Of a stretch of DNA of 41,731 nucleotides, positions 12,733 through 40,954 are shown piece by piece. Made by a program: the position numbers and the translations under genes. The DNA lies in assembly GCA_034190085.1 (NCBI GenBank), contig JAXHTS010000055.1, forward strand, positions 74,117-115,847, given 5' to 3'. A model generated the notes under the pieces. The model did not search any database. It had not been told where the DNA came from and worked only from the letters and a program-made list of their open reading frames with translations. This stretch comes from Spirochaetota bacterium. GTDB lineage: Bacteria; Spirochaetota; UBA4802; JAFGDQ01. The first letter of the stretch is position 1, and the number at the start of each line of letters is the position of its first letter.

Positions 12733-14481
12733 ATGAGTAATGAAGATATATACAACAATATTGAACAAGCCAAGAAGGAATGGGAGGAGAAGGTACTAAC
12801 CCCTGCGTATCAGCGTTTTGGTCAGCAGGAATCACCAACAAAAATCTATACACCTTTGGATGTAAAGGATTTTGATTATATGAAGGATGTCGGACTCCCC
12901 GGTCAATATCCCTTCACTGGCGCAACATATCCAACAAATATCTTTGGACTAGGGATAAAGATGATGGCCATAGGAGGGGGAGATCTGCCTTTAAGAAGGG
13001 CAGCGATCTATTCAGGATATGGCACGTCTGAGGATACTAGAGATTATTACAAGGAAGAGATATCTCGTGGATTTACTGGAGGCCCAAATCTGGCCCTAGA
13101 TCTCCCAACTCAATGCGGGTTGGATTCGGATAATCCAACAGTTGAGGGTGAAGTAGGAAAGGTTGGGGTAGCGATTGATACTCTTAAAGACTTCGAAATA
13201 ATATTTGAACCGTTTGTAAATGGACGCGATCTGGATAAAATTGGTACTAACATTACCATCAATGCAGCATCAAATATCTTAATGGCAATGTATCTGGCGC
13301 TTGCAGATAAGAGAGGCGTAAGCTGGGATAAATTGAGGAGCACCCCTCAGAATGATATTCTAAAAGAGTTTGTATCCAGAGGAACATACATTTATCCACC
13401 CAGACCATCGATGAGGATGTTCAGAGATAGCCTTGTCTTTTTTAATAAAAACTGTCCCGGAATTAATATAACAAGTATTGGTGGTTACCACATTAGAGAG
13501 GGTGGCGCTACTCGAATTCAGGATTTAGCATTTAGTATGGCAATAGGCATAGCATACATTCAGGAAGGTATTAATGCTGGATTGGATATTGATTCCTTTG
13601 CTCCCAAATTTACATTTAATGCCTTTGGTGGAAGTATGGAGTTTTTTAAGGAAATTGGCTTCCAGAGAGCAGCAAGGAGAATGTGGGCAAGGATTTTAAA
13701 AGAAAGGTTTGGAGCAAAGAAGCAAGAGAGTATGAGAATACGCGTTCCAGCTGCAGCGCATATTGGCTGCAGCAGCACTACTAAGCAGCGTGCGCTGAAT
13801 AATGTGACAAGAGCAATAGTCGGTGGAATAGCTGGAGCCCTATCAGGCGGACCGCCTGCTGCATTTCCTCCCTATGATGAGGCTTTAGGATTAGGTTGGA
13901 GCAGAGAAGCAAAGCAACTCATGATTGATGCAGTAAGAATTCTAATTCTTGAGGCCAAACTATCAGATGTGATTGATCCCTTAGCAGGATCCTATTATGT
14001 AGAATCCCTGACCAATGAGATTGAGGAGGAGGCTTGGGATGAATTGAAAAAAATCGAAGAGATGGGCGGCGCTGTCGCTGCCATTGAGGATGGATATATG
14101 CAGAGAGAGGTAGCAAAGAGCGCTGCTGAAAAACAGCGCAAGATAGATGACAGAGAAGAGTTTGTTGTTGGTGTCAATTGCTTTACAGATGACACAGAAC
14201 TGGATGTTACCACAAGCAAGATTGTAGAAAATCCCTATAATCCTGAAAAAAGGGCTAAAGCTGAAGAAAAACAGAAGCAAAGGCTGTCCGAAATTAAGAG
14301 CAAGAGAGATAATAAAGAGGTGAGTAGATTACTCAAGGATCTTAAAGAGGCAGCAAAAGATGAGAGCAAAAACTTGATGCCAATCTTTATTGACTGCGCC
14401 AAGGCTTATGTCAGTGAACAGGAGCAGTGTGATGTCTTGAGAGAGGTCTTTGGCGAATGGGAGAGGGATACATATATTTAG
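12733..14481 (+). CDS. Divergent acyl-CoA mutase large subunit, copy 1 (methylmalonyl-CoA mutase family)
   Basis: The 582-aa product covers the full substrate-binding barrel and C-terminal linker of B12-dependent acyl-CoA mutases but has no B12-binding domain, as in the two-subunit types. Aligned by eye with P. shermanii MCM, it keeps Gln197 (Q206), Arg207 (R216), Tyr243/His244 (Y252-H253) and Glu370 (E383). Differences: Tyr89 is Ile70; PWTxRQYAGF is replaced by a longer segment ending LRRAAIYSGYG; HxQTSG is lost; HTNSxDE reads FPPYDE, so Asn366 is Pro. These motifs are, as I recall, shared by MCM, isobutyryl-, ethylmalonyl- and 2-hydroxyisobutyryl-CoA mutases, so the substrate is probably different, or activity is altered. 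The ATG follows AGGGAGGATTTACT. The paralogue follows after 257 nt. Confidence 0.82.
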   Translation: MSNEDIYNNIEQAKKEWEEKVLTPAYQRFGQQESPTKIYTPLDVKDFDYMKDVGLPGQYPFTGATYPTNIFGLGIKMMAIGGGDLPLRRAAIYSGYGTSEDTRDYYKEEISRGFTGGPNLALDLPTQCGLDSDNPTVEGEVGKVGVAIDTLKDFEIIFEPFVNGRDLDKIGTNITINAASNILMAMYLALADKRGVSWDKLRSTPQNDILKEFVSRGTYIYPPRPSMRMFRDSLVFFNKNCPGINITSIGGYHIREGGATRIQDLAFSMAIGIAYIQEGINAGLDIDSFAPKFTFNAFGGSMEFFKEIGFQRAARRMWARILKERFGAKKQESMRIRVPAAAHIGCSSTTKQRALNNVTRAIVGGIAGALSGGPPAAFPPYDEALGLGWSREAKQLMIDAVRILILEAKLSDVIDPLAGSYYVESLTNEIEEEAWDELKKIEEMGGAVAAIEDGYMQREVAKSAAEKQRKIDDREEFVVGVNCFTDDTELDVTTSKIVENPYNPEKRAKAEEKQKQRLSEIKSKRDNKEVSRLLKDLKEAAKDESKNLMPIFIDCAKAYVSEQEQCDVLREVFGEWERDTYI

Positions 14482-14738: not shown

Positions 14739-16484
14739 ATGAGCAACGAAGATATGAAAAAAGAGATTGGAGAAGCCAAGAAGGTATGGGAAGAGAAGGT
14801 ATTAACTCCAGCATTTCAGCGCTTTGGACAGCAGGAATCACCAACAAGAATTTATACTCCCCTTGATGTAAAAGATTTTGATTACCTGAAAAAAGTGAAC
14901 TTCCCTGGACAATATCCCTTTACTGGCGGCACCTATGCCACAAACGTTTATGGTTTTGGTTTAAAGATGATGGCTGCGGGTGGTCAACTGCCAATGAGAA
15001 GGGCTGGGATGTATTCAGGATATGGCACTGCTGAGGATACGAGAGATTACTATAAGAATGAGATATCTCTTGGCATGCAGGGCGGCCCGAACCTGGCCTT
15101 AGATCTGCCTACCCAATGCGGTTACGATTCTGACGAACCATCTGTTGAGGGCGAAGTTGGCAAGGTCGGTGTTGCCATTGATACACTTAGGGATTTTGAA
15201 ATTATTTATGAGCCATTCGTGAATGGCAGCGATCTGGATAAGATTGCGACAAACATCACTATCAATTCTGCATGTAACATCCTCTTTGCAATGTATCTGG
15301 CGCTGGCAGACAAAAGGAGAATAAGCTGGGATAAACTCAAGAGTACTCCACAGAATGATATTCTTAAAGAATTTGTTTCACGCGGCACCTACATTTTTCC
15401 TCCAAGACCATCGATGAGGATGTTCAGAGACAGTCTGGTTTTCTTTAATAAACATGTACCCAAGGTAAATATAACCAGCATGGGCGGTTACCACATCAGA
15501 GAAGGCGGAGCAAACCACATTCAGGATCTGGCATTCAGCATGGCCAACGGTATTGCCTATCTGCAAGAGGGAGTAAACGCAGGACTCGATGTCGATTCTT
15601 TTGCCAATAGATTTACCTTCAATGCATTTGGCGGTAGTATGGATTTCTTTAGGGAGATAGCCTTTCACAGGGCAGCCAGAAGAATGTATGCCAGAATTTT
15701 GAAAGAGAGATTTGGGGCAAAGAAGCCAGAGAGCATGAGAATAAGGGTTCCAGCAACCGCCATGATCGGACCAAGCAGCACAACCAAACAACGTGCTCTC
15801 AATAATGTCACTAGAGCTGTAGTAGGGGCAATTGCTGGCGCATTATCTGGAGGACCTCCAGCACCATTCCCACCCTATGATGAACCTCTAGGATTGGGAT
15901 GGAGTAGAGAGGCAAGACAACTTGCGGATGATGCATTGAGAATACTCATATTAGAGGCAAAACTGTGTGATGTAACTGATCCATTGGCTGGATCATATTA
16001 TATTGAGTCCCTAACAGATGAAATTGAAGAGGAGGCATGGGCAGAATTAAAGAAAATAGATGAGATGGGTGGCGCTGTAGCAGCCATTGAGAGTGGATAC
16101 ATGCAGACTGAACTTGCTAAAAGCGCAGCCGAGCGACAACGCAAGATTGAGTCCAGGGAAGAATTTGTGGTGGGCGTGAATTGCTTTACGGATGATGTAG
16201 AACTAGATGTGACAACTAGCAAATTGGTAGAGAATCCTTATAATCCACAAAAGAGGGCAGAAGCTGAAGAAAAACAGAAAAAGAAGCTAGCCGAAATCAA
16301 GAGGACAAGGGATAACACTGAAGTGAGTAGATTACTCAAGGATCTTAAAGAAGCTGCAAAGGATGAGAGTAAAAATCTGATGCCAAACTTTATTGATTGC
16401 GCTAAGGCCTATGTCACTGAGCAGGAACAGTGCGATGTATTGAGAGAGGTTTTTGGCGAATGGGAGAAGGATACATACATTTAA
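14739..16484 (+). CDS. Divergent acyl-CoA mutase large subunit, copy 2 (methylmalonyl-CoA mutase family)
   Basis: This 581-aa paralogue is about 80% identical to copy 1 by eye and one residue shorter, in the altered segment near residue 82. It shares the same losses (no PWTxRQYAGF, no HxQTSG, PPYDE for NSxDE) and the same kept residues (Gln205, Arg215, Tyr251-His252, Glu382). It differs at likely pocket positions: Val70 for Ile70, and MIGPSS for HIGCSS after residue 340. The pair could form a heterodimer, like bacterial MCM with one active and one inactive subunit, or two homodimers with different substrates. Here both copies keep the same key residues, so neither looks like an obviously dead subunit. 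The AGGAGG site 7 nt before the ATG is very strong. A long hairpin follows the gene. Confidence 0.82.
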   Translation: MSNEDMKKEIGEAKKVWEEKVLTPAFQRFGQQESPTRIYTPLDVKDFDYLKKVNFPGQYPFTGGTYATNVYGFGLKMMAAGGQLPMRRAGMYSGYGTAEDTRDYYKNEISLGMQGGPNLALDLPTQCGYDSDEPSVEGEVGKVGVAIDTLRDFEIIYEPFVNGSDLDKIATNITINSACNILFAMYLALADKRRISWDKLKSTPQNDILKEFVSRGTYIFPPRPSMRMFRDSLVFFNKHVPKVNITSMGGYHIREGGANHIQDLAFSMANGIAYLQEGVNAGLDVDSFANRFTFNAFGGSMDFFREIAFHRAARRMYARILKERFGAKKPESMRIRVPATAMIGPSSTTKQRALNNVTRAVVGAIAGALSGGPPAPFPPYDEPLGLGWSREARQLADDALRILILEAKLCDVTDPLAGSYYIESLTDEIEEEAWAELKKIDEMGGAVAAIESGYMQTELAKSAAERQRKIESREEFVVGVNCFTDDVELDVTTSKLVENPYNPQKRAEAEEKQKKKLAEIKRTRDNTEVSRLLKDLKEAAKDESKNLMPNFIDCAKAYVTEQEQCDVLREVFGEWEKDTYI

Positions 16485-16603: not shown

Positions 16604-17839
16604 TTATATTACCACTGCCTGAGCCATACCGAAAAAAGCGGTTATTTTACCCCCAATTGAGCCGTCTTTTTTTATCAAGAAATCTTTAGCCAACTCTTCA
16701 GCACTATGATGCCCTATTAATTGTAATCCCCTCTCCTCTAAAAAAAAATTGATTTCTCCTTCTTTTATTTTAAATTTATATGGCTCTCCAGTTGAATTAA
16801 TAGATTCGATCTGCTCTTTTACACCATATCCATCCCTTAATCTTTCTGAATCAATAATATAATTGAATACAACAAAACTACCTGGCTTTGAAATACTCTT
16901 TATAGCATTGAATATTGCATTAACTGCTCCTTCAGACAGATATTGAATTAAACCCTCCAGTAGAAATGTCGTTTTTTTCCCATTATCAAATCCTGCTTTA
17001 GATAAGCGATCTTCAATAGATTCTATAGCAAAATTAATAGGAACAAAAGTCACCTGTTCTGGTATATCAACATTTGATTTAATTAGACACTCGATCTTAT
17101 AACGCTGTGTAGTATGAATATCAAGTTCATAAATCCGTGTCTCCTGTATGTTGTCCTTAAAACGATATGCTCTTGAATCGAATCCTGCCCCAAGAATTAC
17201 TATTTGTGGGCAATTCTCATTTAAAGCCTTTGTGAATATTTGATCAAAAAATATGGTTCTTGCGCTATGATACTCGACTATTCCTTTTGCCAGTTTATTT
17301 TCCTTTATCCATTGTAAAACATCAAGGTTTTCGAATACTGTAAGCCAGTCTAAAGGAAGAAATATCTTGGCTATATTGTCTGGTCCTGGTATTCCGTCAA
17401 TCTTTTCAAAACAATGAATAGCGCGACAAAAAGCTGCTCCCATTGCTGTGACAGATGGTTTCTCTTCAACGCCCTTGGCCCCTTTTTGTTCATATATTCC
17501 TATAATATTCCCAAATGGATCATATACTGCAGCGGTACGTATTATATAATTTTCTTCGTAATTCTCAGATATATCAGTATGTTTAATTGCGCCGAATTCA
17601 ATAAGTTTTTGATATACTGATTCAATATCATCAACTGACCAGTAACCAATAAAATTAGTATTTGTACCGTTTATATCTTTTCTCCTCAAATTGAGGTATA
17701 GATTTATCCCGCCAATTTCAAAAATCAATGAAAAAGGCGTTTCAGATATAGGTTCCTTATCAAGAACTCGAGCATACCAATCCCTTGCCTTTTGGATTTC
17801 ATCTACTGTATATACAAGTGAATGCAAATTTTTAAACAT
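16604..17839 (-). CDS. VOC domain fused to a TIGR00027/PPM-type SAM methyltransferase
   Basis: The 411-aa product joins two domains. Residues ~1-120 form a vicinal oxygen chelate (glyoxalase/bleomycin-resistance) fold: LHSLVYTVDEIQKARDWYARVLDKEP at the start and DPFGNIIGIYEQ at the end, with His and Glu at two of the usual metal positions. Residues ~130-411 are a class I methyltransferase of the leucine-carboxyl/TIGR00027 type: EYHSARTIFFDQ, the SAM loop IVILGAGFDSRAYR, YELDIHTTQ and FLLEGLIQYLSEGAV. This methyltransferase branch modifies small molecules or protein ends; the substrate is unknown. The fusion suggests a metal-bound substrate site and methyl transfer in one polypeptide. The gene is convergent to the mutases and divergent from hypB. 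Confidence 0.8.
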   Translation of the reverse strand: MFKNLHSLVYTVDEIQKARDWYARVLDKEPISETPFSLIFEIGGINLYLNLRRKDINGTNTNFIGYWSVDDIESVYQKLIEFGAIKHTDISENYEENYIIRTAAVYDPFGNIIGIYEQKGAKGVEEKPSVTAMGAAFCRAIHCFEKIDGIPGPDNIAKIFLPLDWLTVFENLDVLQWIKENKLAKGIVEYHSARTIFFDQIFTKALNENCPQIVILGAGFDSRAYRFKDNIQETRIYELDIHTTQRYKIECLIKSNVDIPEQVTFVPINFAIESIEDRLSKAGFDNGKKTTFLLEGLIQYLSEGAVNAIFNAIKSISKPGSFVVFNYIIDSERLRDGYGVKEQIESINSTGEPYKFKIKEGEINFFLEERGLQLIGHHSAEELAKDFLIKKDGSIGGKITAFFGMAQAVVI

Positions 17840-30488: not shown

Positions 30489-31319
30489 TTAATTTATTAA
30501 TTTAGAGCTAATCATATTCCTACCGCTACGTTTTGACTGATACATAAGCTTGTCAGCACAATTTATCAATTCATCTACACTAGATGGGGGTGTTTCATAA
30601 GTGACAATCCCGATACTAAATGTCACAGGCCAGCCATGTTCTTTCATTAACCTTAATAAATTAGTATTAAGCTTATTGGAAATTGAAAAGGCCGCTTCCG
30701 CTCCACTTCCTATAAATAGTATCGCGAATTCATCGCCTCCTAATCTCGCAAATATATCAATAGTTCGAATATTTTTTTTTATGCTCTGAGCAACTACATT
30801 CAATAAATGATCTCCTTCATTATGTCCAAATTTATCATTTATAAACTTAAAATTATCAAGATCTATGTATGCAATAGAAAGGGGATATTTATGTCTCTGA
30901 ATCCTCTTTAACTCATTCTCCGCCTGTTTATAAAAAAATCTTCTATTAGCTATCCCTGTCAAAGGATCTGTCGCAGCAATCTCTTCTTGCTTATGTAATA
31001 AATGCATCAATTTTGATACTAAAAAAACAATAAACAAAAAGACAATAAACCTAAAGGTTTCATTCAAAAAAGGGATATATTTGCCTGAAAAATTTTCCAA
31101 CAACATAACATCAGCTATAAGCCATGACGCTGTGCTGAAAATGGACATAAAAATACCTGATATTCTTCCATTTACCATTGTGGTCATTGTGATCGGGATT
31201 AAATAAAATATTGAAAATGCCAGTTCCACACCTAATGAATAACGAATATACCCAATAACAACCGTAAACATGATGCACAGAATGAAACATAGTACCTTTA
31301 TATATTTTTGCTTTAACAT
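30489..31319 (-). CDS. Membrane diguanylate cyclase (GGDEF)
   Basis: The 276-aa product has about four to five N-terminal spans (residues ~8-105) with no recognisable sensor motif, followed by a GGDEF domain (~115-272). The domain is complete: TDPLTGIANRRFF, YIDLDNFKFINDKFGHNEGDHLL and ARLGGDEFAILF. The product-inhibition I-site RxxD is present as RTID exactly five residues before GGDEF. It should therefore be an active enzyme making cyclic di-GMP from two GTP with feedback control. It begins 8 nt after the DRTGG gene, so it is probably in the acyl-CoA operon, linking acyl-CoA metabolism or its signal to c-di-GMP. Confidence 0.92.
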   Translation of the reverse strand: MLKQKYIKVLCFILCIMFTVVIGYIRYSLGVELAFSIFYLIPITMTTMVNGRISGIFMSIFSTASWLIADVMLLENFSGKYIPFLNETFRFIVFLFIVFLVSKLMHLLHKQEEIAATDPLTGIANRRFFYKQAENELKRIQRHKYPLSIAYIDLDNFKFINDKFGHNEGDHLLNVVAQSIKKNIRTIDIFARLGGDEFAILFIGSGAEAAFSISNKLNTNLLRLMKEHGWPVTFSIGIVTYETPPSSVDELINCADKLMYQSKRSGRNMISSKLIN

Positions 31320-31327
31320 AACTCTTG

Positions 31328-32377
31328 TTACCTAAGGAAATTATCAATATTTACATTTTTCTCTATTAATTGAGCCAATAGCTTAATCCTATCATTACTT
31401 TCGCTTGTCAATAAAGCCTCCATCTCATCTATTCTTTTAGACACCTGATATGTATCCATGGGTACAAGAAGTAATGGGATATTATGCTCGGCCGCTTTTG
31501 AAATGATGTTCTGAGACGGCACAATATTATTAGTCAAAATTATCCCGATATTGCCGCTCTTTATCGAATTAAGTATTATATCATTTCTATCTCCGCTGGT
31601 TATCATTAGTTGATTGTCTCTAGTTATAGAATGAGACATCATCGAGTTGGTGGTTGACATTGTACCAATTAGAATGTTTTTTACGATGTTCTTCAAACCC
31701 TTTTCACCTGAAATAACCTTGGCAAAAAGACTTTCTGCCAAAAATCCAACATTAAAGTAAGTCAATTCTTCTTTATAAGGCAGAACTCCGAAAACATCTA
31801 TACCAATTTTATCAATAAGGGGAATATAATTATTATAAAACTCGTCGATATTATTAACTTTGTTTATTACAATACCACCAAAATTAATATCATCCAAATT
31901 TAAATATTTATTTATAAATTGTATATCGTCTATTATCATATCACTATCGCCGCTTATAATAATAATGACTTTTCCGTCTATATATTTTGATATTGAAAGC
32001 GGATCAAGATGCGCCGATGTCCCAAAACTTAGATCTCGACCACCCTCAATAAACAACACATCATTGTCACGGCCTATATCTCCGACCATCTCAGAGAGAG
32101 TTTCCTTTATTCCCTCTTCATCATACATATATCTAAGTTTTGAATGGTCAAAGCCTATTGTAATATTTTCCGAATGACTTTCGAGATCCCCTTCATAACC
32201 TAGAAGTTTTACAATTGTATGAGAATCGTAATCCCAGCTCTTTTTTCGATAATATACAAGCCTATCACCCAAAGGCTTAATATATCCAAACCTCTTATTC
32301 ACAGCAGTTACAAATCCAGCGATTATGCTGGTTTTGCCAACGCACTCACGTATCGATGAGATTACTATCTTTTTCAT
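31328..32377 (-). CDS. BioD-like P-loop / DRTGG protein (Pta N-terminal-like), acyl-CoA synthetase partner
   Basis: The 349-aa protein resembles the N-terminal regulatory half of long phosphotransacetylases. Residues ~1-200 form a dethiobiotin-synthetase-like ATPase: VISSIRECVGKTSI as a degenerate P-loop (Ile where Gly/Ala is usual), VLFIEGGRDLSFG and FGGIVINKV. Residues ~205-330 form a DRTGG domain: MITSGDRNDIILNSIKSGNIGIILTNNIVPSQNII and IPLLLVPMDTYQVSKRIDEM. There is no catalytic phosphotransacetylase (PTA_PTB) domain, so it is not a Pta enzyme. Such proteins often sit next to ADP-forming acyl-CoA synthetase genes, as here (ATGA overlap with the upstream stop), and may regulate it. Its ribosome-binding site GGAGG lies inside the upstream gene. 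Confidence 0.78.
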   Translation of the reverse strand: MKKIVISSIRECVGKTSIIAGFVTAVNKRFGYIKPLGDRLVYYRKKSWDYDSHTIVKLLGYEGDLESHSENITIGFDHSKLRYMYDEEGIKETLSEMVGDIGRDNDVLFIEGGRDLSFGTSAHLDPLSISKYIDGKVIIIISGDSDMIIDDIQFINKYLNLDDINFGGIVINKVNNIDEFYNNYIPLIDKIGIDVFGVLPYKEELTYFNVGFLAESLFAKVISGEKGLKNIVKNILIGTMSTTNSMMSHSITRDNQLMITSGDRNDIILNSIKSGNIGIILTNNIVPSQNIISKAAEHNIPLLLVPMDTYQVSKRIDEMEALLTSESNDRIKLLAQLIEKNVNIDNFLR

Positions 32378-34485
32378 CTTGCCTCCATTGAGCTATAGAT
32401 TAATATTCTTGCATCCAGAGCCTTTAGTCCCTTGTTTTCATCATATACAACTATGGGATTGATCTCAATATCTGATATCTTGTCACATTTTTCAATTATT
32501 GTCCCAATTTTTATTATACTATCTACTACAGCATCAATATCCTTCTTCTTTTCCCCTCTTGCTCCTAATAACAGGGAATATGCTATGGTCTCCTCCAGCA
32601 TTGACATTGCTATACTTCGATTTAATGGTATAGCTCTAAAAGATACATCCTTTATAAATTCCACATATATTCCTCCAAGACCACACATTACAATAGGCCC
32701 AAATGAAGGGTCTCTTCGCGCCCCGAGAATCAGCTCTATTCCCTGGGCAGCCATCTGACAGACTTCAATACCATCAATTATTGCATTTGGATTATATGCC
32801 TTGCATTTATGTATTATTGCCTCATATGCGTCGATTACTTCATCTCGATTCAATAAATCAAGCATTACGCCTCCAACATCACTCTTGTGCAGGATGTCTC
32901 TAGATACTACCTTCATCACAATAGGATATCCAATCTCCTCAGCATATTGCAAAGCCTCATGCAAGCTGTGTGCTATTCTGTTTATAGGCATTGTTATTCT
33001 AGCGGCTTCCATTACAGAAGCCCCTTCATGGGCCAATAAAAAAGTTCTACCATCATTTATAGCATAATCGATAATATTGTTAATTTTTTGGTCATTAATT
33101 TCCGCCACCTCAATATCATCTGATCTATCATTTAAGTATCCATAAAACCTGCAGGATGCGCCTAAGCAAGATACTGCATGGTCCACTTCATTGTATACTG
33201 GAATTCTCTGGTTTTTTAATCTATTTACAGAATTTTCAACATTCACTCCTCCAACTATTACATAGACTATTGGCTTGCCTCTCTCTTTGTGCATTTTATA
33301 GGTACGGGTAATCATTTCCTCTATGCTTCCAGAATCAAAAACCGCTGTCTCACAGTATAATGCTATTGTCGAGTCAATATTTTCACTTCCAGCGTTTACA
33401 GAAAGAGCAAGATTATAATCTTCCGCTTTAGCGCCTCCGGTTATATCGATTGGATTCTTTGTTGAACCGAAAGGCGGCACTACGGATTTATATAAGTTGT
33501 GTAAATATGACTGATCGTCATAGAGACCAATCATCTGTTTTTCACACGCATCGGCTGCAAGAACGCCAATGCCGCCACCGTTTGTAAGAATAACATTTCT
33601 AAAACCCATTGGTTTAGGACTTTCAGCAAGAAACTTGCACCAATTGAAAGCCTCTTCTAAATTGTTTGCTTTGAGTACCCCGCACTGTTTCATAATCGCG
33701 CCAAAAATCTCATCAGGAACAGCAAGCGAACCGGTATGCGAAGCTGCAGCTAAAGCGCCCCTTGTTGAACCCCCGGATTTTAAAACAATAACGGGTTTTT
33801 TTTTCGTCGCATTCTTCAATGCTTCAATCAATCTTTCCCCTTTCTTTATACCCTCCATATACATAAAAATTACCTTTGTTTCTTCTTGAAGGGTCAAGTA
33901 TTCTAGCAGGTCAGATTCATCAATATCACATTTATTGCCAATCGAGACAATAGCGGATAATCCTATATTCTCAACAGCGGTTTTGCCTATCATCGCAATT
34001 CCAAGAGCCCCGCTTTGAGTAAGTATGGCGACATGTCCTGGGCTAATAAGTGATGAAGAGAAGGTTGAGTTCAAAGATGAAACAGAAGAATATATACCAA
34101 ACATATTTGGCCCCACAACGCGCATTCCTGAAGCCCGAGCAATAGATACAATCTTCCTTTCTTCAGCATCATTGCCAATCTCCGAAAATCCTGAGCTTAA
34201 AATTTGCAAATATTTTACCTTCTTTCTCGCGCAATCCTTAACTGCGTCAATGACAGATCTTGCTGGTAATACTAAAGAGGCGCAATCAATTGTATCATCA
34301 ATATCATCAATACTTTTATATACCTTCATCCCATCGATTTCTCCGCCTTTCGGATTTATGGAATATAGTCTGCCATCGAACCCGCCTGAAATGATATTTT
34401 TCAATACTTTATATCCAATTTTATTCTCATTTTGTGAAGCGCCAATTAATGCAAAACTTCTGGGTTGAAACAGATATTTAATCAC
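32374..34485 (-). CDS. ADP-forming acyl-CoA (acetyl-CoA) synthetase, fused alpha-beta subunits
   Basis: The 703-aa protein joins the alpha part (CoA-binding Rossmann domain, FALIGASQNENKIGYKVLKNI at ~12-32; ligase domain with VAILTQSGALGIAM) and the beta ATP-grasp part (~500-700; GYPIVMKVVSRDILHKSDVGGVML and GIELILGARRDPSFGPIVMCGLGG). It converts acyl-CoA + ADP + phosphate to acid + ATP + CoA through a phospho-His relay, conserving energy when acids such as acetate are made. It is not a Pat-type fusion, as no GNAT domain is attached; a GNAT domain is instead on the neighbouring CoA-transferase. The start is GTG with AAGGA 8 nt upstream. It is 25 nt after the CoA-transferase stop and overlaps the DRTGG gene by 4 nt. 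Confidence 0.9.
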   Translation of the reverse strand: MIKYLFQPRSFALIGASQNENKIGYKVLKNIISGGFDGRLYSINPKGGEIDGMKVYKSIDDIDDTIDCASLVLPARSVIDAVKDCARKKVKYLQILSSGFSEIGNDAEERKIVSIARASGMRVVGPNMFGIYSSVSSLNSTFSSSLISPGHVAILTQSGALGIAMIGKTAVENIGLSAIVSIGNKCDIDESDLLEYLTLQEETKVIFMYMEGIKKGERLIEALKNATKKKPVIVLKSGGSTRGALAAASHTGSLAVPDEIFGAIMKQCGVLKANNLEEAFNWCKFLAESPKPMGFRNVILTNGGGIGVLAADACEKQMIGLYDDQSYLHNLYKSVVPPFGSTKNPIDITGGAKAEDYNLALSVNAGSENIDSTIALYCETAVFDSGSIEEMITRTYKMHKERGKPIVYVIVGGVNVENSVNRLKNQRIPVYNEVDHAVSCLGASCRFYGYLNDRSDDIEVAEINDQKINNIIDYAINDGRTFLLAHEGASVMEAARITMPINRIAHSLHEALQYAEEIGYPIVMKVVSRDILHKSDVGGVMLDLLNRDEVIDAYEAIIHKCKAYNPNAIIDGIEVCQMAAQGIELILGARRDPSFGPIVMCGLGGIYVEFIKDVSFRAIPLNRSIAMSMLEETIAYSLLLGARGEKKKDIDAVVDSIIKIGTIIEKCDKISDIEINPIVVYDENKGLKALDARILIYSSMEAR

Positions 34486-34510
34486 GCCGCTTATCCTTCA
34501 ATTATTTAAA

Positions 34511-36388
34511 TTATACGAATCTCATAGTTAGTTCAACAACACCAAGTTCAATTCTTTTTGATATATCAAAACCCATTGATTCGAATAGGCGTATCATAGG
34601 TCTATTCTCATAAAAAACATCTGCAGTAAATCCCTGAAGACCCTCTTTCTTTGCATGTATTGATAAATATGACAAAAGCTCTGTCCCTACTCCCTTATTA
34701 TGATAATCATCCCTAACTGCAAAGGCCACTTCAGCAGTATTATTGGTTTCATTTTTATAATACTGCCCTATTCCTATCAAAATCTCTTTATCATTTTCTT
34801 TGATAATAGCGAGTATTGCCATATCCATCGTGTAATCAATAACTACAAATTTCTGCCTCATCTTATGTGGAACGCTGAACATCTTGCTTAAAAATCTTCT
34901 CTGAAGACTTTTATCCGAAAGAGAATAGAAAAAATCCTTAATTAAGGTCTCATCATTAATTTTAACCGGCCGCAAAAAAATATTAATCCCGCTTTTAGTT
35001 GTCCTATATGCTTCCAAATGTTCAGGATATTCCCCCTTCTTGCCAGGGATAAACGCCTGATCTTTATATATAAGATTTATTTTTTTTGCTTCCTCAATCA
35101 ACCATGGCCTAAATTTAGGATGAGCAATAGCAATCAGATCCATTGCTCTCTCCCTGATATTCTTGCCATGAATATACGCAATGCCCAGTTCAGTAACGAT
35201 ATAATGAATATCTCCTCTTGTATATGTAACGCCAGCACCCGCATCTAGCAAGGGAACAATACGCGAAGCTTCGCCGTTCCTCGCAGTAGACTGAAGCACT
35301 AGCACGCTCTTGCCTCCAGTCGCCAAGACAGCGCCGCGCATAAAATTAGCGCTTCCGCCAATACCGCTGAAAAAAGTACTCCCAATTGACTCAGCCGTTG
35401 CCTGACCGGTTAGATCAACCTGCAATGCTGAATTAATTGCGGTCATATTGTTTATACTAGATATAACTAACGGATTGCTGGTATAATCTATGGTCCTAAA
35501 CCTTATTATCGGATTATCATTAAGGAATTCATAGGTTTCCTTAGAGCCCATACAAAATGTCGCCACTGTCCTGCCCCAATTTCTGCTCTTCATCGAGTTA
35601 TCAACAATCCCTTTTTTGATCAATTCAATTACCGAATTTGTTATAAGCTCTGTATGGATTCCAAGATGCTTCTTATCCTGCATGTTATATAGAACTGCAT
35701 TTGGCAAACTGCCATAACCGACCTGTATAGTATCGCCGTCATTGACTATCTGTGAAACATACTTCCCAACCTGCTGAGCAATTTCATCCGGAACTTTAGG
35801 CGAAAACTCTAATAAAGGCTCATCATGCGGAAGGACAAAATCGATATCCTTTATATTAATAAAAGAATCCCCATGCACTCGAGGCATATTTGAATTGATC
35901 TGAGCGATAACGAGGGATGCATTTGTAATCGCAGCTGGGGCAATATCAACGCTTATGCCTAAACTCAGGTATCCATTTTTATCTGGCAAAGATGTATGAA
36001 TCAGCGCTACATCAAATTGGATCAATCCTTTAGCTATTAAGCCAGGCACCTGTGAAAGAAATATAGGAGTATAATCTGCCAATCCTTTATTGACAGATTC
36101 CCTGGTGTTGTTACTAACAAAAAAGGAATTATGTCTAAAATTGTCTTTAAACTTCTCATCTGTATAAGGAGCGACACCGAGTGTCCATATATGAAAAATC
36201 TCAGCGTCAGCCACTGCTTTTGGATTTGATTCCACATACTTTATTAGCGCATTAACGAGATATTCCGGCTCGCCACATCCCGTACTTATGAATATCCTGT
36301 TACCGCGCCGAATATTTTGAAAGATAGCGTCCTCATCAATAAATTTTTCAGGATATTTATCTTTCCATATTTGTATAGTATCTTCCAT
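34511..36388 (-). CDS. Acetyl-CoA hydrolase/CoA-transferase fused to a GNAT acetyltransferase domain
   Basis: Residues ~1-430 are a class I CoA-transferase/acetyl-CoA hydrolase: RIFISTGCGEPEYLVNAL, DVALIHTSLPDKNGYLSLGISVD, DGDTIQVGYGSLPNAVLYNM, GIHTELITNSVIELIKKG with the likely catalytic Glu, and FFSGIGGSANFMRGA. It ends with the family's SRIVPLLDAGAGVTYTRGD...YGIAYIHGKNIRERA-like stretch. Residues ~470-625 are a GNAT fold: VAFAVRDDYHNKGVGTELLSYLSIHAKKEG carries the acetyl-CoA loop. This fusion is known in annotated genomes. It may move CoA between acids and also acetylate an amine, perhaps a lysine of the adjacent acyl-CoA synthetase, though the target is unproven. It is the first gene of the operon (ATG at 36388, weak AAGAG site). 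Confidence 0.88.
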   Translation of the reverse strand: MEDTIQIWKDKYPEKFIDEDAIFQNIRRGNRIFISTGCGEPEYLVNALIKYVESNPKAVADAEIFHIWTLGVAPYTDEKFKDNFRHNSFFVSNNTRESVNKGLADYTPIFLSQVPGLIAKGLIQFDVALIHTSLPDKNGYLSLGISVDIAPAAITNASLVIAQINSNMPRVHGDSFINIKDIDFVLPHDEPLLEFSPKVPDEIAQQVGKYVSQIVNDGDTIQVGYGSLPNAVLYNMQDKKHLGIHTELITNSVIELIKKGIVDNSMKSRNWGRTVATFCMGSKETYEFLNDNPIIRFRTIDYTSNPLVISSINNMTAINSALQVDLTGQATAESIGSTFFSGIGGSANFMRGAVLATGGKSVLVLQSTARNGEASRIVPLLDAGAGVTYTRGDIHYIVTELGIAYIHGKNIRERAMDLIAIAHPKFRPWLIEEAKKINLIYKDQAFIPGKKGEYPEHLEAYRTTKSGINIFLRPVKINDETLIKDFFYSLSDKSLQRRFLSKMFSVPHKMRQKFVVIDYTMDMAILAIIKENDKEILIGIGQYYKNETNNTAEVAFAVRDDYHNKGVGTELLSYLSIHAKKEGLQGFTADVFYENRPMIRLFESMGFDISKRIELGVVELTMRFV

Positions 36389-36528: not shown

Positions 36529-36930
36529 TTATGATAATAATTCATAAATTTTATCAAAATCTTTTGATTTATCAAAAAAATAATCTGCTCCAAGATCAAT
36601 ACATCTAAGCTTGTACAGGGGATAAGCATAGTTAGTTAATATAATAACTTTAGTATTCGGGCAACTAATCTTAATCTTTTTTAATACATCTATTCCACTA
36701 CCTCCTTGTAGTTTGATGTCCAGTATTACGAAATCGGGTTTTTGTTTATTAATTTTTTCTATTGCATCAAATGGTATTCCTGATACACCTGAAATTTCAA
36801 CTTCCTTAATATATGAAAGCATCTCTACAATTTTAGCTAAAATCAACAATGAATCCTCTACTATTACTACTTTTTTAATAGCCTTATTATTATCTGTAAT
36901 CATCTCAGTTATTGGATTATTATTAAGCAT
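36529..36930 (-). CDS. Stand-alone receiver-domain response regulator
   Basis: The 133-aa protein is a single receiver domain (from residue ~18): KVVIVEDSLLILAKIVEML with the acidic pair, phospho-Asp in DFVILDIKLQGGSGIDVLKKI, Thr in VIILTNYAYP and Lys in YFFDKSKDF. It has no output domain, so it acts by protein contact or phosphate shuttling (CheY/Spo0F manner). The ATG at 36930 is chosen because GGAGG lies 5 nt before it; a longer frame (to 36957) starts inside the upstream small gene. It is 16 nt downstream of the 45-codon gene and is divergent from the NtrB/NtrC-type pair. Confidence 0.85.
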   Translation of the reverse strand: MLNNNPITEMITDNNKAIKKVVIVEDSLLILAKIVEMLSYIKEVEISGVSGIPFDAIEKINKQKPDFVILDIKLQGGSGIDVLKKIKISCPNTKVIILTNYAYPLYKLRCIDLGADYFFDKSKDFDKIYELLS

Positions 36931-36946
36931 TAGCGCCTCCATTGAT

Positions 36947-37084
36947 TTACAATACAAAATATATTATACTAGTTATCTTTTTAAAATATCTCTTTGAACG
37001 ACTTAAAACTTTTTTTAAGTTATCCTCAGTTAATAAAATACTATCAAAATCCCCTGTTCTTTTATTTCCACTAACAATAAACAT
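36947..37084 (-). CDS. Small 45-aa protein upstream of the receiver gene
   Basis: An ATG at 37084 is preceded by AAGGAG 8 nt upstream, one of the best ribosome-binding sites in the window, and opens 45 codons to a TAA at 36947. The product begins MFIVSGNKRTGDFDSILL, has a lysine/arginine-rich middle (KKVLSRSKRYFKKI) and ends in a short hydrophobic tail (IIYFVL). I recognise no family. The next gene starts 16 nt after its stop, so it would be the first gene of a two-gene operon or a leader coding region. It could be a small membrane-associated regulator or a partner of the receiver protein. Its size alone makes it uncertain. Confidence 0.5.
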   Translation of the reverse strand: MFIVSGNKRTGDFDSILLTEDNLKKVLSRSKRYFKKITSIIYFVL

Positions 37085-37290: not shown

Positions 37291-37623
37291 GAGCATAAGA
37301 CAAATAATTTTTAGAGCTATAATTAGAAGGCTATTGATTACTTGAATTCAAATTTAAATAAAACGACAAATTGAATATAGTAACGTAAATCATAATCTGA
37401 AAAACGTAATTACCAACAGCAAACGATCATTTTTCTACTTGACTTTGCATATTGATTAAATTCTTTTAATAATTGCACTTTAGCAATATTATTTATTATG
37501 ACTTATCATAAGGTAAATCTACCCTACCTTTAAATTATTCTATCTGATTAATGCGATTATATCTGTTTGTTTATTATACCTGGTTATTCAACAATTCTTA
37601 CGATCTATAAATCAATATTTATA

Positions 37624-39543
37624 ATGAAAATATATTTAAAGACAAAACTCGTAATTGTTTTTACCATAATAATTATGATGACTGGACTTATTACCTCAGT
37701 CATTGGAATATTTATTATCAATAAAGGAATGTTAAATCAAGTTCAAATTAAAATTTTAACCGATTTAAACTCAGCAAAAGAATTTATAAATAATAGAACC
37801 GATACAATTCAAAACACAATTTACTTCTCAACTTTAAGAGATTGTATTAAGATATCTCTTATGATTAAAGATATCACGTCATTGAAAGAATGTTTAGATC
37901 AAATTATTAATACTGTAAAAATGGATATAGCAGCGATTACTGATAAAAATGGTATTGTTATATACAGAGGGCATAATCCTGTAATCTTTGGAGATGATCA
38001 AAGCAATGATCAAATTATTAACAAAGTATTAGCGAGCAAAAAGATTGTTTGCGGGTTTATATTAGTACCGCAATCGGATTTAATAAATGAAGGAAGGCAC
38101 ATTGAGAAGCGTATAAATTATAACATAGAGAAAGCAGATAAAGGGGGATATGCTATGATACTAAAGGCAGCAGCACCGATATGGAGTGATAATGGCGATT
38201 TTATTGGCATTTTATATGGAGGAGATATCATAAACCAAAATTTCCATCTTGTCGATAAAATAAAAAAAATTGTATATAATAAACACAAAGGCATGGATAT
38301 AGGGAGAGTATCGATCTTCCAGAAGGATATTCGTATTGCTACAAATGTTCCTACAGATGATGGAGAAAGAGCTGTGGGCACAAGGGCTTCAAAAGAGGTA
38401 TACAAAAAAGTCATAGAAAATGGCAATCAGTACATTGGGAGAGCCTATGTTGTCAATTCATGGTATATAACAGGTTATTTACCGCTTAGAGACATTGATA
38501 AACAAATTATTGGAATGATCGGTTTGGGAATGATTGAACAACAATTTGTTGATATGAAGAGGGAAGCATTGCTTATTTTCCTTGGAGTTACAATGCTTGG
38601 TATGATCATAGTATTTCTTGTATCAAATATAATTGCCAACCGAATAACAAAACCAATAAAATTTTTAGTTAATGCATCTCAACAAATCTCAAAAGGTAAT
38701 TTTACTTTAAGCGCAAAAATTGATTCAAATGATGAGATAGGAGAGTTAGAAAAATCATTTAACATAATGGCTTTTAAACTCCAGGAAAGGGACATAAAGA
38801 TAGCAAAACAAACCCAACTGCAACTAATGCGTTCAGAAAAGTTGGCTGCTTTAGGTAGAATGGCAGCAGGGGTAGCCCATGAGATTAATAATCCATTAAC
38901 AGGTGTTCTTATGTATGGGCACCTGCTACTAAAAAAATTCCCTGAAGACACTCAAAATTGGAAAGATATAGAAATAATCGTGAAAGAGACAACTCGTTGT
39001 CGTGAAATAATAAGCAATTTATTAAACTTTGCAAGAGAAAGCATTCCACACAAGGAATCAGCTAATATCAATGATGTTATCAAAGACACTATTTCTATTA
39101 TCAAGAATCAAATATTTTTTGAGAAAATAAACCTAAAACTTAATCTATGTAACAATTTGCCTGACATTAAGATTGACATCAACCAAATTGAACAGGTTTT
39201 AATTAACATTATGCTGAATTCTGTTGAAGCCATGTCAGACGGTGGAGATCTAATTATTAAAACAAATATAAATGAAAATTATACCAATATTATTATATAT
39301 ATCACAGATACAGGATACGGTATTCCATATGAGTCTATAGATAAAATTTTTGACCCCTTTTTTACTACTAAAGAGATTGGGAAAGGGACAGGACTTGGAC
39401 TCGCTGTAAGTTATGGAATAATTAAGAGACATGGTGGCCAGATTATTGTCGATAGCCAGGTTGAAATTGGCACAACATTTACAATAATATTGCCAATTGA
39501 ATGTTTTAATAAAACTAATGATGAAGGTGTGTACGATGCATGA
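37624..39543 (+). CDS. NtrB/ZraS-type Cache-HAMP sensor histidine kinase
   Basis: The 639-aa membrane kinase has a first span at ~8-32, an extracytoplasmic Cache-like sensor (~33-315; IAAITDKNGIVIYRGH and GGYAMILKAAAPIWSDNGDFIGILYGG strands), a second span at ~320-343, and HAMP (~345-395; NRITKPIKFLV). HisKA has the phospho-His in RMAAGVAHEINNPLTGVLMYG, and HATPase has NQIEQVLINIMLNSVEAM, DTGYGIP and GTGLGLAVSYGI. Single Cache sensors bind small organic ligands outside the cell. The frame extends to a TTG at 37567, but the ATG at 37624 gives the expected short cytoplasmic N-terminus. It overlaps the sigma-54 activator gene by 8 nt, so the two are coupled partners. Confidence 0.92.
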   Translation: MKIYLKTKLVIVFTIIIMMTGLITSVIGIFIINKGMLNQVQIKILTDLNSAKEFINNRTDTIQNTIYFSTLRDCIKISLMIKDITSLKECLDQIINTVKMDIAAITDKNGIVIYRGHNPVIFGDDQSNDQIINKVLASKKIVCGFILVPQSDLINEGRHIEKRINYNIEKADKGGYAMILKAAAPIWSDNGDFIGILYGGDIINQNFHLVDKIKKIVYNKHKGMDIGRVSIFQKDIRIATNVPTDDGERAVGTRASKEVYKKVIENGNQYIGRAYVVNSWYITGYLPLRDIDKQIIGMIGLGMIEQQFVDMKREALLIFLGVTMLGMIIVFLVSNIIANRITKPIKFLVNASQQISKGNFTLSAKIDSNDEIGELEKSFNIMAFKLQERDIKIAKQTQLQLMRSEKLAALGRMAAGVAHEINNPLTGVLMYGHLLLKKFPEDTQNWKDIEIIVKETTRCREIISNLLNFARESIPHKESANINDVIKDTISIIKNQIFFEKINLKLNLCNNLPDIKIDINQIEQVLINIMLNSVEAMSDGGDLIIKTNINENYTNIIIYITDTGYGIPYESIDKIFDPFFTTKEIGKGTGLGLAVSYGIIKRHGGQIIVDSQVEIGTTFTIILPIECFNKTNDEGVYDA

Positions 39544-40954
39544 AAAAATGAGGATTCTTCTCATTGATGATGAACCAGTAGTATGCGGCAGTTGTGAACG
39601 CTTTCTAGGAGAAGAAGGATATGAAATAAAGACAACACTTAAGGGTAAAGAGGGTATAGAACTTATTAAAAATAATGAATTCGATATTGTTATAACAGAT
39701 CTTAAGATGCCTGAGATATCAGGAATGGACATTCTGGAATTTACTAAAAAAAATTATCCAGAGATTCAGGTTATTATAATAACAGGGTATTCCACTATAT
39801 CAAATGCAGTTGAAAGCATTAAAAAAGGCGCTTTTGATTATCTCCCTAAACCCTTCACACCTGACGAACTGCTTTCTGTTGTCAGAGACGCATCGATAAA
39901 AAGAATGCAATCACTGAAACATATATATAGATGTAAAGTTACTCCCCACAAATATGGACTGGATAATATAATCGGTATAAGTGATGAAATGATAAGGATA
40001 TTTGAGCTAATTGAAAAAATTGCGCCTACAGATTCAACTGTTTTAATTACTGGTGAAAGCGGAACAGGCAAGGAACTGATCGCACGCGCAATATACAATC
40101 ACAGTTCAAGAAAAGACATGCACTTTATTCCAGTTGATTGCAGCACCCTGGCTGAAAGTCTTTTAGAAAGTGAACTCTTTGGCCATACCAAGGGATCATT
40201 TACCGGAGCTTCCACTGGTAAACGCGGATTATTTGAAATTGCTGACAATGGTACACTCTTTTTGGATGAGGTATCCAATATACCAATGGATACCCAAAAA
40301 AAATTATTAAGGGTGCTGGAATCCCGTGAATTTAGACCAGTCGGTTCTGAGAAGGTCAAGAGGGTCGATATCAGGCTTATTGCAGCAACCAACCGTAATC
40401 TTAAAATGATGATAGAGAAAGAAAAATTTCGCGAAGACCTCTATTATAGATTAAATGTTTTTTCCATAGATGTTCCCCCTCTTAGGAAGAGACCTGAAGA
40501 TATTCCAATACTAGCATATAATTTTTTAAGACAGATATGCCAAACCCTTGATAAAAGACCCAAAGAATTCTCTAAAGAAGCAATGGACATTATGATGAAA
40601 TATAATTGGCCCGGGAATGTTAGAGAATTAAGGAACGCTATTGAAAGACTTGTTATTATCTCTGATGATGATCTTTTATCATCCGAAAATATAAATAATA
40701 TTATAGATATTGATGAAAACAGCATTTCTAATAACACAAATAAATATTCAGCGCCTATGACAAATATCGAATTGAAAGAGAACAAAAAAAAAGCAAGGGA
40801 AAATGCAGTTATAGAAGTGGAAAAGACCTTTGTTATAGAAGCTCTAACTAGAAATAAATGGAATGTCACAAAAGCTGCCGAAGATACAGGCATGCAACGA
40901 ACAAATTTTCAGGCATTAATGAAAAAATATAATATCAAACATCAAGATCCCTAA
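39536..40954 (+). CDS. NtrC-family sigma-54-dependent response regulator
   Basis: The 472-aa protein has a receiver (~1-120; ILLIDDEPVVC, phospho-Asp in IVITDLKMPEISG, Lys in YLPKPFTPDE), an AAA+ domain (~145-380) and a Fis-type helix-turn-helix (~430-470; NVTKAAEDTGMQRTNFQALMKKY). The AAA+ domain has Walker A GESGTGKE, the sigma-54 contact loop as GSFTGA instead of GAFTGA (a known variant), GTLFLDEVSNI as Walker B, and an arginine-finger region FREDLYYRLNVF. When phosphorylated it should hexamerise and open sigma-54 promoters. The start at 39536 has AAGG 8 nt upstream and overlaps the kinase stop; earlier in-frame starts would lengthen the N-terminus needlessly. I found no convincing -24/-12 promoter in the window. 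Confidence 0.94.
   Translation: MHEKMRILLIDDEPVVCGSCERFLGEEGYEIKTTLKGKEGIELIKNNEFDIVITDLKMPEISGMDILEFTKKNYPEIQVIIITGYSTISNAVESIKKGAFDYLPKPFTPDELLSVVRDASIKRMQSLKHIYRCKVTPHKYGLDNIIGISDEMIRIFELIEKIAPTDSTVLITGESGTGKELIARAIYNHSSRKDMHFIPVDCSTLAESLLESELFGHTKGSFTGASTGKRGLFEIADNGTLFLDEVSNIPMDTQKKLLRVLESREFRPVGSEKVKRVDIRLIAATNRNLKMMIEKEKFREDLYYRLNVFSIDVPPLRKRPEDIPILAYNFLRQICQTLDKRPKEFSKEAMDIMMKYNWPGNVRELRNAIERLVIISDDDLLSSENINNIIDIDENSISNNTNKYSAPMTNIELKENKKKARENAVIEVEKTFVIEALTRNKWNVTKAAEDTGMQRTNFQALMKKYNIKHQDP

Follow-up and report, generated by a model that had tools for sequence, protein, structure and literature searches.

A CoA-transferase-GNAT fusion, an ADP-forming acyl-CoA synthetase and a stand-alone DRTGG protein form a conserved gene module that stands beside a diguanylate cyclase in a Spirochaetota genome

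Which genes belong together when a CoA-transferase, an acyl-CoA synthetase, a protein resembling half of a phosphotransacetylase (Pta) and a diguanylate cyclase follow one another in a single short run, and what would they do in common? The question is raised by contig JAXHTS010000055.1 of a Spirochaetota bacterium (assembly GCA_034190085.1; 4.27 Mb in 86 contigs), of which a stretch of 41,731 nucleotides (nt), herewith called the window, was analyzed. The original prediction for this DNA described four packed genes on the minus strand and proposed that together they could couple acyl-CoA or acetyl status to the level of cyclic di-GMP (c-di-GMP). The coordinates, strand and gaps of that description were found to be exact, the intergenic distances in the order of transcription being 25 nt between the CoA-transferase-GNAT fusion (CoAT-GNAT) and the synthetase (Acd), -4 nt (an overlap) between Acd and the DRTGG gene, and 8 nt between the DRTGG gene and the cyclase, and the Pfam domains agree with all four names. 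The features of the run are as follows.

34511..36388, minus strand: CoAT-GNAT, first gene of the module, 625 amino acids (aa); AcetylCoA_hydro, AcetylCoA_hyd_C and Acetyltransf_1 (Pfam)
34511..35032, minus strand: GNAT part of the fusion, residues 453-625; structural relatives of Pat type, 69.2 bits to 9isq/9it0
32374..34485, minus strand: Acd, an ADP (NDP)-forming acyl-CoA synthetase with alpha and beta parts fused, 703 aa, GTG start; CoA_binding_2, Succ_CoA_lig, Ligase_CoA_2 and ATP-grasp_5 (Pfam)
31328..32377, minus strand: stand-alone protein with a BioD-like P-loop part and a DRTGG domain (DRTGG protein), 349 aa; AAA_26 and DRTGG (Pfam)
30489..31319, minus strand: membrane diguanylate cyclase, 276 aa; GGDEF (Pfam)

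The first three genes, encoding CoAT-GNAT, Acd and the DRTGG protein, are a conserved module across many lineages, as observed in two sets of loci. For the first set, a pattern scan was made of the contigs of one genome per species (84,980 species), 296 relatives of the DRTGG protein were confirmed, and the best 80 were used (the named loci); the second consists of 32 neighbourhoods from 29 genomes of the order of the window, and since it overlaps the first, the counts of the two are not additive. Acd adjoins the DRTGG gene in 75 of the 80 named loci and in 30 of the 32 same-order loci, and a GNAT gene lies directly upstream of Acd in 56 of the 80, supporting the earlier claim that the three genes are linked as a unit; a Pat-type GNAT gene adjoins Acd in 21 of the 32 same-order loci. 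The CoA-transferase part is visible in 55 of 59 GNAT-bearing named loci, the remaining 4 being cut by the start of the contig, and the location of the GNAT on the CoA-transferase instead of on Acd, pointed out originally for the window, was seen in the conserved loci as well. The packing is also repeated, with a gap of -35 to 25 nt between Acd and the DRTGG gene in 60 of 75 loci and likewise between CoAT-GNAT and Acd in 46 of 56 (with start codons not curated). Furthermore, pairwise distances taken in 50 loci with all three proteins are correlated (r of 0.60, 0.77 and 0.79, the maximum of 500 permutations each being 0.17), as expected for genes inherited together. The record titles of the relatives name Spirochaetes, Deltaproteobacteria, Syntrophaceae, Eisenbacteria, Bipolaricaulota, Balneolales, Dehalococcoidia, Aminicenantes, Thermoplasmata, Altiarchaeota and Micrarchaeota, most of them being metagenome bins, in which single odd lineage labels may be binning errors. 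In a separate search of 59 relatives with the DRTGG protein, 33 gave a match at E <= 0.001, fused Pta proteins counted in.

Several observations stand in the way of too strict a view of this module. The 80 named loci are the best matches to the DRTGG protein of the window, and hence were chosen for similarity. A GNAT gene is not in place in 21 of them; 7 of these have less than 500 nt upstream, and the other 14 have room, so that CoAT-GNAT is not beside the Acd-DRTGG pair in 14 of 80 loci with room to show it, one of them from the close relative G001 (L096). In two of the 14, CoAT-GNAT is present at another position of the locus: downstream in L121, and in L124 ahead of Acd at a distance of about 2.9 kb. 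A GNAT gene stands beside the DRTGG gene with no Acd in 3 further named loci (L171, L173 and L174), and neither Acd nor a GNAT gene is beside the DRTGG gene in L098 and L148.

The cyclase, in contrast, looks like a lineage-specific neighbour outside the conserved module. As the original prediction stated, it has a full active site and an I-site: the sequence reads RTID-IFARL-GGDEF, in which GGDEF is intact and the RxxD motif of the I-site lies, as the rule for this site requires, five residues upstream. It adjoins the DRTGG gene, however, in none of the 80 named loci (downstream of DRTGG, 66 of these offer 1,000 nt or more and 75 offer 300 nt or more) and in none of the 32 same-order loci (29 with at least 300 nt), the loci too short to show an adjacent cyclase (less than 300 nt) being 5 of 80 and 3 of 32. 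A cyclase homologue anywhere in the locus was found in 1 of the 80 (L155, about 6.6 kb downstream) and in 1 of the 32 (L083, where frames on the opposite strand separate the module from a REC-GGDEF protein located 1.4 kb downstream). Three species were available for the family of the window, each of its own genus, and in the other two, G001 and G002, the closest cyclase homologue sits on a different contig from the module. Among the cyclase matches listed for 46 genomes of the order, a contig is shared with the module only in the genome of the window and in G035, where the two are about 98 kb apart.

Because as many as 15 places in the genome of the window match the cyclase query at E <= 0.001, the window copy counted and one paralogue showing 47 % identity, a cyclase neighbour in a single genome is weak evidence of linkage. 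The reading in which all four genes act jointly, the c-di-GMP level being set by acyl-CoA or acetyl status through the DRTGG protein and the cyclase, we hold to be highly improbable: the 8-nt gap, in which a simple scan detected no terminator-like site, the intact GGDEF and I-site, and the nine PilZ matches in the genome, 8 of them over the Pfam cut-off, are set against the lack of adjacency in both sets of loci, a few of which are without room, the separate contigs in G001 and G002, and the 15 cyclase-matching places. In addition, a search of the open-access literature found no paper joining c-di-GMP, diguanylate cyclase, ADP-forming and acetyl-CoA synthetase. Coupling to c-di-GMP as a general feature of the module was thus rejected; the original prediction had itself named missing conservation of the cyclase beside the other genes as the outcome that would speak against it, and such conservation is missing. 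The PilZ matches indicate that c-di-GMP signalling probably exists in this genome, and, given the 8-nt gap, the cyclase may be co-transcribed with the DRTGG gene in this species; the other gaps of the run are likewise free of terminator-like sites in the same simple scan. In a tree of 15 rows the window copy of the cyclase was not placed with support. A foreign origin of the cyclase was also considered on the basis of composition and rejected, its GC content of 0.320 being not clearly apart from that of the DRTGG gene (0.334) or the window (0.351). This case illustrates that operon neighbours taken from one genome, here the cyclase, need a conservation check.

What, then, would the three conserved genes do together? 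The reading that we favour, and consider somewhat probable, is an acyl-CoA/acid energy module able to form ATP, in which a regulatory part of Pta type is supplied in trans and a lysine acetyltransferase is carried on the CoA-transferase. The fusion protein consists of a CoA-transferase (about residues 8-440) and a Pat-type GNAT domain (about residues 453-625). The best relatives of the former are 4-hydroxybutyrate CoA-transferases, and its E247 aligns with E238 of 3gk7, the catalytic glutamate that forms the glutamyl-CoA intermediate; this glutamate, by which family I is recognized, is kept in 56 of 57 rows (1 gap), and the model of the CoA-transferase matches 2oas with a TMt of 0.92. Since the score of 246.6 bits for the butyryl-CoA:acetate equivalog TIGR03948 is under the cut-off of 674.8, the acid substrate was left unassigned.

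As for the GNAT part, the eight best of its 14 solved relatives are Pat-type protein acetyltransferases, including PatZ (9it0/9isq), the GNAT of S. lividans Pat (4u5y/4nxy) and mycobacterial Pat, and its model matches the GNAT of S. lividans Pat, 4u5y, with a TMt of 0.82. E553 aligns with E809 of E. coli PatZ (9it0) and is Glu in 50 of 57 rows, and N595 is kept in 57 of 57. In disagreement with a working acetyltransferase throughout, E553 is Asp in 7 of 57 rows, and G566, which is Gly in 51, is Asp in 6, so that the GNAT may be impaired in some members, as far as these residues tell. Such replacements of the Glu or the P-loop Gly in 6-7 of 57 rows, as well as the 14 of 80 loci that have room and no GNAT gene beside Acd-DRTGG, would fit a metabolic module only, in which CoAT, Acd and the DRTGG protein handle acyl-CoA and the GNAT is an allosteric sensor of acetyl-CoA or a relic; we regard this as possible and yet rather unlikely, in view of the Glu retained in most rows, the invariant N595 and the Pat-type character of the nearest solved relatives. 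The predicted model of the whole fusion is of moderate quality, with a predicted local distance difference test (pLDDT) value of 76.8, and the placement of the GNAT against the CoA-transferase was therefore not interpreted.

Acd carries the set of domains, CoA-binding, Succ_CoA_lig and ATP-grasp_5, that defines the NDP-forming acyl-CoA synthetases, and its best solved relatives are the 4-hydroxybutyrate-CoA ligase 8wzu (453 bits) and 4xyl (354 bits). Catalysis in these enzymes proceeds through two phospho-histidines, one each of the alpha and beta parts, and both are aligned in the module, H250 in 73 of 75 rows (2 gaps) and H533 in 74 of 75 (1 gap). In E. coli PatZ, the region aligned to H250 is replaced, and the synthetase domain of type I and type II acetyltransferases is described as inactive, in type II for want of the catalytic His (PMC8556138; papers given by PMC number are here and below cited from parts of their text). 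With both histidines kept, the Acd of the module looks, on the evidence of its residues, like a competent enzyme and not a Pat-like sensor. Because its score of 519 bits does not reach the NCBIfam equivalog cut-off of 1300, no substrate was assigned to it.

The DRTGG protein is colinear with the N-terminal half of the class II Pta encoded by the same genome (C81); it matches the Pta model PRK05632 at positions 2-367 with 92.8 bits, far under the cut-off of 418, and the PTA_PTB catalytic domain is absent by Pfam. Its AlphaFold model (pLDDT 87.6) matches BioD (3of5), the DRTGG domain of Archaeoglobus AF1212 (2ioj) and the N-terminal domain of E. coli Pta (7t85). We presume that AF_1212 neighbours the gene for an ADP-forming synthetase, AF_1211; the DRTGG family was matched also in the control genome of Haloferax volcanii. 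In class II Pta, the N-terminal part has been tied to activity, oligomerisation and regulation (PMC12724200). E111 is present in 80 of 80 rows; the P-loop residues G14, K15 and T16, as well as K34, D49 and D51, are each found in 79 of them, the remaining row having a gap, and the nearest match of the model is to dethiobiotin synthetase. These features would be expected if the DRTGG protein were not a regulator but a metabolic enzyme with BioD-like ATP-dependent chemistry, such as an acyl- or carbamoyl-phosphate step, an explanation that appears improbable for a protein that is colinear with the regulatory half of Pta, contains a DRTGG domain, and is without the first glycine of the canonical P-loop (I9 in its place, GKT being kept). 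The missing glycine also makes nucleotide binding uncertain, and in this respect counts against the favoured reading as well.

The DRTGG gene is tandemly duplicated in L062, L063, L064 and L065 (genomes G032, G027, G015 and G024, respectively). Directly downstream of the DRTGG gene in several relatives, a family of about 155 aa was observed (L059:11925-12383, L060:7429-7896, L061:11691-12152, L081:10418-10891 and L085:10984-11451), the members showing 54-58 % identity to that of L060 and weak, sub-threshold similarity to the sensor domains RsbRD_N, HisK_N and Rsbr_N.

Under the favoured reading of an ATP-forming module, the CoA-transferase would let an acyl-CoA and a free short-chain acid exchange CoA via a covalent glutamyl-CoA on E247. 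Acd would use ADP and Pi to release the acid and CoA from the resulting acyl-CoA, probably that of acetate or propionate, with formation of ATP in two phospho-histidine steps (H250 and H533), or alternatively run in reverse, spending ATP to activate the acid. Both steps are predicted from the catalytic residues, whereas substrate, direction, complex formation, the target of acetylation and allostery are what we infer. The DRTGG protein would act on Acd in trans as the N-terminal half acts on Pta in cis and, with its P-loop lysine, may bind ATP and tune Acd or the CoA-transferase to energy status. The fused GNAT would probably acetylate a lysine on the CoA-transferase or on Acd at high acetyl-CoA, as a form of feedback.

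Some facts have to be weighed on the other side of this reading. Since acetate kinase and Pta are also encoded in the genome of the window, a different acid, for instance propionate, may be the one on which the module works. The window also encodes two tandem methylmalonyl-CoA mutase-domain proteins (12733-14481 and 14739-16484), which as a pointer to propionate is only suggestive; beside this pair, at 16604-17839 on the minus strand, is a protein of 411 aa that matches glyoxalase and leucine carboxyl methyltransferase. In Syntrophus aciditrophicus, which is related to some of the carriers, nine ADP-forming synthetase genes are barely expressed and ATP is formed by an AMP-forming enzyme (PMC4992975). 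For haloarchaea, opinions differ on which way the ADP-forming enzyme runs in vivo, the purified enzyme of Haloferax mediterranei working both ways (PMC11784441). In Desulfovibrio vulgaris, the AAA and DRTGG protein DVU3031 is encoded in the lactate-pta-ack operon; its homologue is usually absent from the lactate operon elsewhere, and was described as being of unknown function and not involved in lactate oxidation (PMC4481167). In favour of the reading, DVU3031 was found to be important on L-lactate (PMC10102598), and a putative ADP-forming synthetase replaces pta-ack in the lactate operon of six species (PMC4481167); the haloarchaeal gene pair described below speaks for it as well.

An extension of the favoured reading, speculative and on balance unlikely, is that of a split Pat, reasoned by analogy: the GNAT would dock on a separate, live Acd and be gated by its acetyl-CoA occupancy, as the dead Acd domain gates PatZ, and the DRTGG protein would gate both by ATP. 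If true, it would represent an ATP-forming acyl-CoA complex that acetylates itself and is distributed over many lineages of bacteria and some of archaea, and it would add a sixth architecture to the five GNAT types described (PMC8556138).

In the neighbourhood of the module, three further genes for signalling proteins are located.

36529..36957, minus strand: REC-only response regulator, 140 nt upstream of the module, context (Pfam)
37567..39543, plus strand: sCache_3_3-HAMP-HisKA histidine kinase, divergent from the module, a candidate regulator (Pfam); relatives adjoin the module in 6 genomes of another family
39497..40954, plus strand: NtrC-type sigma-54 response regulator beside the kinase, a candidate regulator (Pfam)

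The sCache_3 kinase is a signalling neighbour better conserved than the cyclase. Its sensor part was matched in 35 of 59 genomes (once in 34 and twice in G048), 26 of which also hold a stand-alone DRTGG protein, and in 7 of the 26 the kinase is near the module, namely in the genome of the window and in 6 genomes of genus g12 (L068-L073), hence in two lineages; L072 and L073 showed no GNAT gene next to Acd. In the other 19 of the 26, the kinase sits on a different contig. In G048, DRTGG domains were found only in a fused Pta, and upstream of this Pta, at about 4 and 8 kb, are two sCache_3_3 kinases, in the same stretch as an NtrC-type regulator and a formate/nitrite transporter (kinase/NtrC-type pair at L180:5138-8455). 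Taken together, this suggests, and does not prove, a two-component control of acetate-type energy genes by this kinase. A pattern search allowing up to 1 mismatch detected no sigma-54 site in the gaps upstream of the module, and over the whole window the pattern matched 13 times, where chance would give 15.1.

Other features were observed alongside. The regulator neighbouring the kinase in L108, a g12 locus, is a REC-HisKA protein and not of NtrC type. The stretch of G048 contains, between the two-component genes and pta, a frame of 428 aa joining REC and Form_Nir_trans (L180:12216-13502, plus strand; start not curated) and, just downstream of pta, a protein with matches to the two Pfam domains that take their name from plant NARROW LEAF 1 (L180:17638-18684, plus strand). 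Outside the window, G000:C63 carries an open frame of 7163 aa in which AMP-ligase-like matches recur and which may encode a giant peptide synthetase.

For uncultured fermenters and syntrophs, making ATP from acyl-CoA at the substrate level is of central importance, and little is known of how it is controlled. A module in which an active Acd is paired in trans with the regulatory half of Pta would hint at the role of stand-alone DRTGG proteins such as DVU3031, which PMC10102598 did not settle. A Pat-type GNAT on a CoA-transferase would extend the architectures of PMC8556138, the suggested target being the neighbouring Acd or the CoA-transferase itself. No description of the three-gene module was found in the open-access literature searched, a search that leaves subscription journals mostly outside and is based on parts of the papers. 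Its parts are already known, and for haloarchaea the pairing of an ADP-forming synthetase gene with a neighbour annotated as Pta has been published (PMC11784441).

How does the module compare, finally, with these known systems? With Pat (E. coli PatZ, S. enterica Pat and S. lividans PatA) it shares the GNAT, nearest to theirs among solved structures, and an Acd as the partner. In type I and II Pat the two are on one chain, whereas here GNAT and synthetase are on separate chains and the GNAT is on the CoA-transferase. Annotation pipelines presumably already name such a bifunctional CoA-transferase-GNAT fusion. In the cited part of PMC8556138, the five-type scheme of bacterial acetyltransferases contains no CoA-transferase-GNAT, and the Acd of the window has retained the catalytic His whose absence is ascribed there to type II. 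With the 4-hydroxybutyrate and butyryl-CoA:acetate CoA-transferases 3gk7 and 2oas, the fold and the catalytic Glu are common, the protein of the window bearing an extra GNAT at the C-terminus. AAA_26 and DRTGG are colinear with the N-terminal half of class II Pta, both that of E. coli and that of the same genome, but the DRTGG protein is without PTA_PTB and its partner is Acd instead of a fused Pta. DVU3031 resembles it in having AAA and DRTGG without the PTA domain, in an operon leading likewise from acetyl-CoA to acetate according to the excerpts cited; the neighbours of DVU3031 are pta and ack, and the likeness is by description, not by sequence comparison. In haloarchaea, the gene of a 364-aa putative PTA adjoins that of an ADP-forming synthetase in a widespread arrangement (HFX_0998/HFX_0997; PMC11784441), which has in common with the module the synthetase beside a Pta-annotated gene; HFX_0997 is likened by description, not by sequence, and the excerpts of that paper mention no CoA-transferase-GNAT. 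The ADP (NDP)-forming acetyl/acyl-CoA synthetases 4xyl and 8wzu have the same domains and both catalytic His aligned, while the Acd of the window is tied in addition to a CoAT-GNAT and a DRTGG protein.

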